Assembly: GCA_004322275.1 (NCBI GenBank)
Contig: SCTA01000029.1
Location: 1-64,000, forward strand
Length of the DNA stretch: 64,000 bases
Reading direction: 5' to 3'
Origin: a bacterium
Lineage (GTDB): Bacteria; Desulfobacterota; Deferrisomatia; Deferrisomatales; BM512
The position numbers and the translations under genes are program-made. How positions within the stretch are numbered: the first letter of the stretch is position 1; each line of letters starts with the position of its first letter. Positions 1 through 14,536 of this stretch are shown here, one piece after another. The notes beneath the pieces are model-generated. The model did not search any database. It was not told the DNA's origin and was given only the letters and a program-made list of their open reading frames with translations.

Positions 1-3000
1 CCCCCGCGGACGTAAGACAAGCCGCTTTTTTTTTGGTTTCAATCCACGCGCCCGCACGGGGCGCGACTCCCTGCAAAGCCCCCTGCAACCCGACGCTGCC
101 GGTTTCAATCCACGCGCCCGCACGGGGCGCGACCCGATATTTTCGCGCCGCCTCGTAGTCCATAACGCGTTTCAATCCACGCGCCCGCACGGGGCGCGAC
201 GGCATGGCAAGCCCGACCTTCTCCATGTATACCTGTTTCAATCCACGCGCCCGCACGGGGCGCGACCACGGAGCCGGAACCATCGTCTTGATGAGGTTGA
301 GTTTCAATCCACGCGCCCGCACGGGGCGCGACCTGTTGTTTGATGATTACAGACTACCACTCCGCCGGTTTCAATCCACGCGCCCGCACGGGGCGCGACC
401 CCGAACCCGATATCATAATCCACTGCGACGGCATGTTTCAATCCACGCGCCCGCACGGGGCGCGACACGAGGGGCATTCAGAGAGCGGTTAAACCTGGAG
501 AGTTTCAATCCACGCGCCCGCACGGGGCGCGACTCTTGCAATCTCTTGTAAACAATGTTTCCGTCAAGTTTCAATCCACGCGCCCGCACGGGGCGCGACG
601 CTGACGCCATGCTCAGAGAAAGGGAATCCAATGTTTCAATCCACGCGCCCGCACGGGGCGCGACTAAGGAGGTCAATATTGCATTATCATTATATACACG
701 TTTCAATCCACGCGCCCGCACGGGGCGCGACCCGAACTCTCCCGGCTTGAAGTGGCGGATACCCTCGTTTCAATCCACGCGCCCGCACGGGGCGCGACCC
801 GTGATCCGGGGCAACGTATTTGAAGAGATGAAGTTTCAATCCACGCGCCCGCACGGGGCGCGACAAAACTGAGCCGTGCCTTTGCACGGCGTATCAAGCG
901 TTTCAATCCACGCGCCCGCACGGGGCGCGACCTGTGCCGCGTCACTGATGTTTACTTGAGCGGCGAGTTTCAATCCACGCGCCCGCACGGGGCGCGACGA
1001 GGAGATTTTCAAATGATAGGAGACATCCTCAAGTTTCAATCCACGCGCCCGCACGGGGCGCGACGGACCTGCAAGACGCCTATCCCTTCGAGCTTCCACG
1101 TTTCAATCCACGCGCCCGCACGGGGCGCGACGGTGGGTGTATGGCCCCACACGGCCTGCCTTTCTGTTTCAATCCACGCGCCCGCACGGGGCGCGACGGG
1201 ATGGGTTTTCCGGCGGCGTCTTTATCGATGTGTTTCAATCCACGCGCCCGCACGGGGCGCGACCCGTTGGGGTCGGTTCTCTCCTTATCGGTGAAATGTT
1301 TCAATCCACGCGCCCGCACGGGGCGCGACTCAATCTGATAGAATCCGCGCCTCCTCCTATCCTCGTTTCAATCCACGCGCCCGCACGGGGCGCGACGAGC
1401 CCCGGAGGCCCGCGAAGCTCCAGAGACTCGTTTCAATCCACGCGCCCGCACGGGGCGCGACGTCATATCATCATATTTTACAAGGGCAAAAAAACCGTTT
1501 CAATCCACGCGCCCGCACGGGGCGCGACCCCTGCTTTCAGGACTTACAGGCGGCGTGGAGAAAGTTTCAATCCACGCGCCCGCACGGGGCGCGACCTACC
1601 AGCCGCCACGCGGGCAAGGTGTCCTGATGCGTTTCAATCCACGCGCCCGCACGGGGCGCGACATATTCTCCGGGTCGAGCGTTCGCGCAACAATCTGTTT
1701 CAATCCACGCGCCCGCACGGGGCGCGACTTGGATTTCTACGCGGATTTCTCCATGGGAAAAGGTTTCAATCCACGCGCCCGCACGGGGCGCGACCGCTGA
1801 CCATTCGGATCTCCGTACCGACGTACGCGTTTCAATCCACGCGCCCGCACGGGGCGCGACAGAAGAGCTTCAAAAGGCGTGGGCGGTTGGAAAGCGTTTC
1901 AATCCACGCGCCCGCACGGGGCGCGACAAGGGTATCTTGATGTTGTCTTTCGCCCATTCCAGTTTCAATCCACGCGCCCGCACGGGGCGCGACCACGGCA
2001 GCCAGGCAGTGAGCGTCTCGCCCATGCGTTTCAATCCACGCGCCCGCACGGGGCGCGACCAGGCCGAGGATGCGCAGATAGATCTGGACATAAAGTTTCA
2101 ATCCACGCGCCCGCACGGGGCGCGACTCCGGGCGCAGATACTCGGGATAGTCGATAAATGTTTCAATCCACGCGCCCGCACGGGGCGCGACGCCGGGTAC
2201 TTCATCCAGGACGCGGCCTAAAGCCTGTTTCAATCCACGCGCCCGCACGGGGCGCGACTTCGAGCCCCTCGAGGTAGGTTATCTGGTTTTCGTGTTTCAA
2301 TCCACGCGCCCGCACGGGGCGCGACAAGGCCGGTCTCTGCGCAGAGGGCCGCGAGGCTGTTTCAATCCACGCGCCCGCACGGGGCGCGACCCGCGCAGGC
2401 CGTCGAGTTCGCCGAGGCGGAAGAGTTTCAATCCACGCGCCCGCACGGGGCGCGACCGCCACTCCCGCGCAGGTCGATGCGAGTTTCGCCGTTTCAATCC
2501 ACGCGCCCGCACGGGGCGCGACACGCTCAGACAAAAGGGCTGGTGGGGCTGGACCGTTTCAATCCACGCGCCCGCACGGGGCGCGACTCGCGCACATAAC
2601 CGGCGTCGCGTAGCATGTAGATGTTTCAATCCACGCGCCCGCACGGGGCGCGACCAAGATCAGCCTGACGTAAAGGGGGGACGATGAGTGTTTCAATCCA
2701 CGCGCCCGCACGGGGCGCGACTACGGTGACGGCGGCGCAGAGCGACCAGTTCGGGTTTCAATCCACGCGCCCGCACGGGGCGCGACGACGCTGGGCGGCG
2801 CGGCGCGTGACACCGTTGTCGTTTCAATCCACGCGCCCGCACGGGGCGCGACCCGCCAAAATATCTGGTCTCCATGCTGTAAATGGAGTTTCAATCCACG
2901 CGCCCGCACGGGGCGCGACGCGGCACCGAGGTAAGCCCCGCGTGAGAGACGCCCGTTTCAATCCACGCGCCCGCACGGGGCGCGACGCTCGGGGATTCGG

Positions 3001-12000: not shown

Positions 12001-14536
12001 CTATTACCGCTTGCAGGCATGGGCCTATCTTTCGTGGTTTCAATCCACGCGCCCGCACGGGGCGCGACGAGAAAAAACCAAGGCATTCCCTTTTGAATAG
12101 GAGTTTCAATCCACGCGCCCGCACGGGGCGCGACTCCGGAACTATGCCCTCCGGCCGGTCATCGCGGTGTTTCAATCCACGCGCCCGCACGGGGCGCGAC
12201 GAACCACTCTTTGTGCATGATCAGCCGAGCCACCAGTTTCAATCCACGCGCCCGCACGGGGCGCGACCGACCGCAGTAGGCATAAGCGAAAAGGACTACA
12301 TGTTTCAATCCACGCGCCCGCACGGGGCGCGACATCCCGGCGACGGCATCATCGTCGCCAAAACCCTCGTTTCAATCCACGCGCCCGCACGGGGCGCGAC
12401 CGTCGTGGCCCCGTAATCGCAACTCTTTAAGAGGAGTTTCAATCCACGCGCCCGCACGGGGCGCGACCGTCAGAATCGCGGCGCGTACAAGCGCGGCGAC
12501 TGGTTTCAATCCACGCGCCCGCACGGGGCGCGACTCTATCAGGCCTCCTACCCCGCCCCCGCCTCGTCGTTTCAATCCACGCGCCCGCACGGGGCGCGAC
12601 GCGTCCGCACCGTCGATATCTACGACCCCGAATCGTTTCAATCCACGCGCCCGCACGGGGCGCGACATCCGCGCCGCTCTCGGAGGGGGCTAAGCCATGG
12701 CGTTTCAATCCACGCGCCCGCACGGGGCGCGACGGACGTGTACCGGTGTATACGGCACCGCTGGACCCGTTTCAATCCACGCGCCCGCACGGGGCGCGAC
12801 GCCCTTCGGGCTTGGGGTTTGGTTTGGAAGGGTTGTTTCAATCCACGCGCCCGCACGGGGCGCGACATCGATGGGGCTCCCGTCAGCTTCGACCGATGAA
12901 AGTTTCAATCCACGCGCCCGCACGGGGCGCGACGTAATTTACCATACAGGCTTACAGCGCCAAGCTCTGTTTCAATCCACGCGCCCGCACGGGGCGCGAC
13001 AAGGCCCTTTATCGCGGCAAAGGTGGTTGTGTACGTTTCAATCCACGCGCCCGCACGGGGCGCGACTCGGCGTCGGTGTCCTTCGTCGAAACCCCTACCT
13101 CGTTTCAATCCACGCGCCCGCACGGGGCGCGACCTCGAATCTCGGACACCCGCACCTAGCCAAACCCGCGTTTCAATCCACGCGCCCGCACGGGGCGCGA
13201 CCTGGCGTGGCTACCACCACGGCTTACCGGGATGTAGTTTCAATCCACGCGCCCGCACGGGGCGCGACCTCTCTCCGGGTACGATAGACGGCCCCGGAGT
13301 CTTGTTTCAATCCACGCGCCCGCACGGGGCGCGACCGTGGATAAATAGCGACGAAGTACTCAATTCAGCCGTTTCAATCCACGCGCCCGCACGGGGCGCG
13401 ACTCCGCCACCGGCCGGAAGAGCGAAAGGGAGAAACAGTTTCAATCCACGCGCCCGCACGGGGCGCGACCCCGTGTAAATAAAAATCCCATCGCCCGCAA
13501 AGAGTTTCAATCCACGCGCCCGCACGGGGCGCGACGAGGCGGTCCGTAACGGTTGCCTGGGCGTTGTTGCAGTTTCAATCCACGCGCCCGCACGGGGCGC
13601 GACAGGGCCTTGTTGGCGGTGTCGGCGAGGATGTAGGGTTTCAATCCACGCGCCCGCACGGGGCGCGACTCCACGGGCGCGGCCTCCACGTCGTGGGAAA
13701 CCTTGTTTCAATCCACGCGCCCGCACGGGGCGCGACATTTACAGCGGCCTCTATGTCTGGAGCGAAAGATGTTTCAATCCACGCGCCCGCACGGGGCGCG
13801 ACCTGCGGGGGGGGGGTATCTTCCCCGAACTCAAAGACGTTTCAATCCACGCGCCCGCACGGGGCGCGACAAGCCGGATGGGCGGCTCTGGCGGCGGTTT
13901 TCTTGTTTCAATCCACGCGCCCGCACGGGGCGCGACGATAGCCTCGCCCGGAGTCGTGATCGTCTACCTCGTTTCAATCCACGCGCCCGCACGGGGCGCG
14001 ACTGTGGCCGTCAATCAGGCAGATGTCGAGCGGGCCGTTTCAATCCACGCGCCCGCACGGGGCGCGACGGCGGATATTTTTTAGGAGGAAGACGGCGGCA
14101 TGTTTCAATCCACGCGCCCGCACGGGGCGCGACATGTAGCCGTCTTCGAGCGTCGGCGTGCAGGAAACGTTTCAATCCACGCGCCCGCACGGGGCGCGAC
14201 GTAGGTCTTTATATTTTTGCTTGGCTTGTTCCGCGTTTCAATCCACGCGCCCGCACGGGGCGCGACGCGTCACCCTCCTCGCTGGCTCTCGCTCCCTTCC
14301 TTGTTTCAATCCACGCGCCCGCACGGGGCGCGACGCTGCTCAGGCCATCGGAGACACCGTCTATCTCAAGTTTCAATCCACGCGCCCGCACGGGGCGCGA
14401 CTCTGTCTGACAACACGGCCAGCAGCATTCAGAATGTTTCAATCCACGCGCCCGCACGGGGCGCGACGTCCGGTCTGCGCGGTGACGAGGTTGTTCTTCT
14501 TCACGTTTCAATCCACGCGCCCGCACGGGGCGCGAC
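1..14536 (-). CRISPR. Giant type I-C CRISPR array (219 repeats)
   Basis: A 32-bp repeat, beginning GTTTCAATCCACGCGCCCGC and ending ACGGGGCGCGAC on the plus strand, recurs every 65-69 bp. I count 219 copies, the first at 36-67 and the last at 14505-14536, separated by 218 complete spacers of 33-37 bp. Bases 1-35 look like one more spacer, so the array continues beyond the left edge. On the minus strand the repeat ends GGATTGAAAC, the usual 3' end and crRNA 5' handle of type I-C repeats, so the array is read leftward in the same direction as the cas operon. The leader and newest spacers are therefore at the right end. All repeats looked identical except the one at 6731-6762 (one G to T). Several spacers are duplicated or overlap each other. 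Confidence 0.99.

Follow-up and report, generated by a model that had tools for sequence, protein, structure and literature searches.

The left end of the window, as we call the whole 64,000-nucleotide stretch of DNA analysed here, carries a CRISPR array of 219 repeats that is, in all probability, the memory of a complete type I-C CRISPR-Cas system, grown by at least 218 acquisitions that were kept, including protospacers recorded more than once.

In the proposed mechanism, Cas4-Cas1-Cas2 would cut out fragments that adjoin a TTC PAM and integrate them on the right, at the leader end, and each insertion would duplicate the first repeat; the repeats would be near-identical because every new one is copied from the first. 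Cas5c may process the array transcript into crRNAs, and Cas8c, Cas7 and Cas5c together with Cas3 may destroy matching DNA that bears the PAM. Retention of this many acquisitions would account for the size of the array. The same PAM-anchored protospacers would have been recorded repeatedly, in at least one case with a changed PAM-adjacent seed base, and some of the array's length would then be owed to a limited pool of invaders met time and again. Two neighbouring spacers would have been drawn from the bacterium's own chromosome without a PAM and would hence be harmless.

Structure of the array and cas gene content

A plain scan of the window found 219 copies of the repeat GTTTCAATCCACGCGCCCGCACGGGGCGCGAC, of which 218 are identical and one differs by a single mismatch. 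All 219 forward copies returned by a whole-genome search lie on the contig that contains the window (C29), and none of the other 44 contigs holds a copy with 3 or fewer mismatches. The spacers measure 33-37 nt (30 of 33 nt, 89 of 34 nt, 88 of 35 nt, 10 of 36 nt and one of 37 nt) and comprise 216 distinct sequences; they are numbered here from the left, starting at 0. The original prediction of 219 repeats and 218 whole spacers, with only one repeat off the consensus, agrees exactly with this independent scan, and its assignment to type I-C was borne out by the cas genes. The observation of a long, near-perfect array is confirmed.

The crRNA strand is the minus strand, on which the repeat reads GTCGCGCCCCGTGCGGGCGCGTGGATTGAAAC; this orientation was set by the adjacency of cas2 and by the type I-C repeat end GATTGAAAC. 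To the right of the array, on the minus strand and transcribed toward it, lies an operon with the genes cas3, cas5c, cas8c, cas7c, cas4, cas1 and cas2, with no cas6 between them (Table 1). Each predicted Cas protein other than Cas3 scored above the cutoff of its own family, Cas3 matched through both of its domains, and all genes are full length by profile match. Together with a 32-bp repeat ending in GATTGAAAC on the crRNA strand and spacers of about 34 nt, these profile matches identify the system as a complete type I-C CRISPR-Cas system. A scan of genome contigs with the Cas1 protein matched only distant systems, and no match to a sigma-70-type promoter was found in the leader. New spacers generally enter an array at its leader end; as the leader lies on the right, the youngest units are on the right and the oldest visible ones on the left. 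This order makes the array useful as a time-ordered record.

Table 1. Features of the array, its leader and the cas operon, in window positions (s, spacer)
Feature	Position	Strand	Basis or remark
35 nt preceding the first repeat, probably an additional spacer cut by the contig end	1..35		Spacer-sized, unique in genome
CRISPR array, 219 repeats of 32 bp, 218 spacers	36..14536	-	Repeat scan
s64, overlaps s39 (2655-2689) by 17 nt	4310..4344	-	Flank AAA = PAM TTT
s76, oldest copy of re-acquired protospacer	5106..5139	-	Differs from s115 (7688-7722) and s195 (13001-13034) at PAM-adjacent base
s91, re-acquired protospacer	6098..6132	-	s96 (6430-6463): one base changed, position 22 from PAM side
Sole variant repeat, its one mismatch not passed on to younger units	6731..6762	-	Repeat scan
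s107, re-acquired protospacer	7158..7193	-	s144 (9614-9647) shorter by 2 nt at PAM-distal end
s109, overlaps s207 (13803-13838) by 24 nt	7292..7325	-	Flank GAA = PAM TTC
s147, overlaps s155 (10349-10382) by 16 nt, opposite strands	9815..9849	-	PAM TTC for both
s151, re-acquired protospacer	10082..10116	-	s163 (10877-10912) longer by 1 nt at PAM-distal end
s154, re-acquired protospacer	10283..10316	-	Identical to s159 (10612-10645)
s166, re-acquired protospacer	11078..11111	-	Identical to s170 (11340-11373)
s173, 36/36 match to own fusA (elongation factor G)	11537..11572	-	PAM-position sequence ATC
s174, 34/34 match to own FG-GAP-repeat gene	11605..11638	-	PAM-position sequence TAT
Leader between array and cas2, 178 bp, 58% A+T	14537..14714	-	Gene and repeat coordinates
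cas2	14715..15005	-	TIGR01573
cas1 (type I-C), sole cas1 of genome	15015..16049	-	TIGR03640
cas4	16052..16681	-	TIGR00372
cas7c (csd2)	16689..17579	-	TIGR02589
cas8c (csd1), signature gene	17613..19589	-	TIGR01863, 401 bits vs cutoff 219
cas5c	19576..20277	-	TIGR01876
cas3, HD nuclease and helicase	20291..22720	-	TIGR01596 and TIGR01587

A PAM deduced from overlapping spacers

Spacers that overlap one another reveal the bases flanking their protospacers, and yield a PAM without any known phage. Four flanks were obtained in this way, three GAA and one AAA in array orientation, which correspond to TTC (3/4) and TTT (1/4); three GAA flanks among four would arise by chance with a probability of about 1e-5. 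The PAM on the crRNA-like strand is TTC. This triplet is a usual type I-C PAM, and TTT is also listed for type I-C (PMC8482600).

Repeated spacers and renewed acquisition

Eight pairs of spacers, falling into six groups (76/115/195, 91/96, 107/144, 151/163, 154/159 and 166/170), derive from the same protospacers. The end on the PAM side falls on the same base in all eight pairs, while the far end is off by 1-2 nt in five of them, and equal length was seen in 2 of 7 events against 2.5 expected under independent trimming of the far end. Repeated copies lie closer together than random pairs do (median distance 12 units, p 0.0035), which is the pattern that bursts of contact with a single invader should leave. 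Pair statistics give an effective pool of about 3,000 protospacer sites in the window. In the group 76/115/195 the two newer spacers, s115 and s195, carry a changed base at seed position 1, next to the PAM, relative to s76; escape of an invader followed by re-immunisation is a plausible cause.

Repeated spacers could also have arisen inside the array by recombination, that is, by unequal crossing-over and later partial deletion. A large survey attributed 86% of its candidate repeated spacers to duplication, more than to any other cause (PMC11472070), and two of our pairs are exact copies only 4 and 5 units apart, which could in principle be products of recombination followed by loss. Nevertheless, we regard this origin as improbable: no collinear (segmental) duplication exists among the 218 spacers and the neighbours of the repeated spacers are not duplicated, whereas block duplications are plain in the array of genome G026 (s18-21 = s23-26, s100-101 = s106-107). 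In addition, the two members are of unequal length in five of the eight pairs, always owing to the PAM-distal end, and differ by a base in three pairs (two groups), which copying alone would not give. Because the PAM-side end is fixed and the far end variable, with no duplication of neighbours, renewed acquisition fits the repeated spacers better than recombination does. This combination of a fixed and a variable end separates the two processes without the need for related strains.

Re-acquisition was also seen in most of the other long arrays compared. Single, non-adjacent repeated spacers form 10 pairs in G026, 9 + 1 in G258 (two contigs), 6 in G171 and one in G178; a 63-repeat contig of G233 had none. 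Most repeated pairs of these comparator arrays, though not every one, have a fixed PAM-side end. The large survey covered 24,090 spacers and reported 8 reacquisitions plus 7 independent insertions (PMC11472070); the contrast with the arrays studied here is no more than suggestive, given that definitions differ and that the number of pairs rises as the square of array length. We consider it possible, if rather doubtful, that long I-C arrays partly grow by renewed uptake of identical PAM-anchored protospacers, sometimes with a changed seed, at a rate above the 15/24,090 of that survey. If so, the length of an array would reflect repeated contact with a small pool of invaders and not breadth of memory, the approximately 3,000 effective sites being a few phage genomes' worth.

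Spacers matching the host chromosome

Two neighbouring spacers, s173 and s174, match the host's own genome perfectly and are the only significant matches of this kind, all others being at chance level. The chance that two self spacers would be neighbours is about 0.9%, and their adjacency therefore suggests that both were taken from the host without a PAM in one linked episode. Elongation factor G is encoded by a gene, fusA, that is essential in well-studied bacteria. Further matches of s173 in many relatives would, judging by sequence, fall within the conserved gene for the elongation factor or within paralogues of it, and not in prophages.

Two perfect self matches, one of them within fusA, might be tolerated if the system were inactive or blocked, by a broken cas gene or an anti-CRISPR. 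This explanation appears unlikely: profile matches show every cas gene at full length, the array gained 43 spacers after the self spacers, and neither self target has a TTC PAM. The missing PAM is probably the simplest reason why s173 and s174 are tolerated. With their perfect but PAM-less matches, both spacers offer a natural setting in which to test whether PAM recognition underlies self-tolerance in type I-C systems.

Search for invader targets

Searches of phage records and viral contigs turned up no protospacer. Viral contigs contained no match to exact 22-25-mers from two of the repeated spacers, or to codon-degenerate patterns of four repeated spacers, a set that partly overlaps that of the exact search. 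BLAST of the array against phage records returned, beyond weak single-spacer matches, only repeat-like matches to unannotated faecal phage records; the single-spacer matches had E values of 0.01-0.6 and were taken as chance. Spacer s153 resembles the 3' end of ssb in the related genome G001 (7 mismatches, TTC flank), with a further near match in G002 (6 mismatches, TTC flank) at a site that is ssb-like by sequence. The true target of s153 may be an ssb gene borne by a phage.

The left end of the array

Base 1 of the window is also base 1 of contig C29, and the array was therefore cut by the assembly and not only by the window. The 35 nt to the left of the first repeat have a typical spacer length and occur nowhere else in the assembly. 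The array had been predicted to run out of the window leftward, and it does so, as the contig itself ends there; the true array is probably longer, and the repeat is absent from all other contigs. No continuation was found elsewhere in the assembly and no partner contig exists. Whatever is missing is probably short, or else failed to assemble or was filtered out, because a long part with unique spacers should assemble on its own. Contig breaks inside arrays do occur, as in G258, whose array is split between two contig ends with one low-complexity spacer in common. The left end is missing and the oldest end of the array lies outside the contig. Among close relatives, no repeat of this array was found in the same genus or family.

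That the array is an artefact, inflated or scrambled by repeat-driven misassembly, is very unlikely: the contig does end inside or at the array, and identical 98-bp repeat-spacer-repeat stretches occur at s154/s159 and s166/s170, but looping of a few units cannot yield 216 distinct spacers, copies of a repeated spacer differ in their neighbours and mostly in length, and a complete single-contig genome (G026) has an even longer array of the same kind.

Genes and elements next to the cas operon

Several elements lie beyond cas3. A ParE-like toxin and a Phd/YefM-like antitoxin (22878-23421) are placed between cas3 and a Lamassu-type defence system (23548-27264), which adjoins the cas operon and consists of LmuA, LmuC (ABC-3C middle component 3) and LmuB with DUF3732. 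The Lamassu stretch is low in GC (36%), and lmuB is broken by an in-frame TAA at 26680-26682. The defence genes are bounded by a tRNA-Sec gene (27464-27561). A tyrosine-recombinase-like gene ends just before the same tRNA-Sec in a genome of the same genus (G001, L097), and the site may therefore be an integration hotspot. Next to it, at 27572-27691, lies a dispersed repeat of 120 bp, of which some 40 copies at 83-98% identity are listed for the genome. The copies checked share their end borders, and the element folds better than shuffled sequences (z -2.75) and matched no Rfam family.

Comparison with other arrays

A typical bacterial array has fewer than 50 spacers (PMC8047081), and arrays of the present size are indeed rare in general, as originally predicted. 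To call it exceptional goes too far. A 14-base core of the I-C repeat, counted in 395 genomes of the phylum, was present in 107 of them, and by these genome-wide totals (317, 260, 219, 200 and so on) the genome studied here ranks third. Complete genome G026 holds 320 repeats in one array, the record is 587 spacers (PMC7145573), and the present array is not the largest of its kind.

Uniform repeats at the oldest visible end had been taken as a sign of long, efficient adaptation with little recombinational loss. The repeats are near-perfect there, but with the true distal end missing from the contig their uniformity is no measure of age; in G026, three of the six variant repeats are at the distal end (indices 0, 1 and 2). 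Recombinational loss, likewise, cannot be read from a single array, because deletions leave no scar, and only the absence of segmental duplications is seen. Uniform repeats are the norm in most of the long I-C arrays compared, with variant repeats numbering 0/132, 0/63 and 6/320. A 264-repeat I-C-like array in G171 (L122-L123) is unlike the other long arrays, with about half of its repeats off the chosen consensus, a deviation that may in part be due to repeat phasing.

The array is thus large but ordinary in kind, one more large example of type I-C. It shares with type I-C systems with 32-bp repeats (GTCGC...GGATTGAAAC) the same gene set and order, repeat length and ends, spacers of 33-37 nt and the TTC PAM, and differs from type I-C systems generally only in the size of its array, which is above most but not all. 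The 23.5-kb array of G026 (C1:1844781-1868287) has in common with it the I-C repeat, near-perfect repeats and single-spacer re-acquisitions. It is larger, however, and, unlike the window, has distal degenerate repeats, a distal insertion and block duplications; the insertion, of 2.3 kb, lies between its first and second distal repeats (L078-L079). Haliangium ochraceum DSM 14365 likewise has a single very large bacterial array, likened here by published size and not by sequence, whose 587 spacers are more than twice those of the window (PMC7145573).
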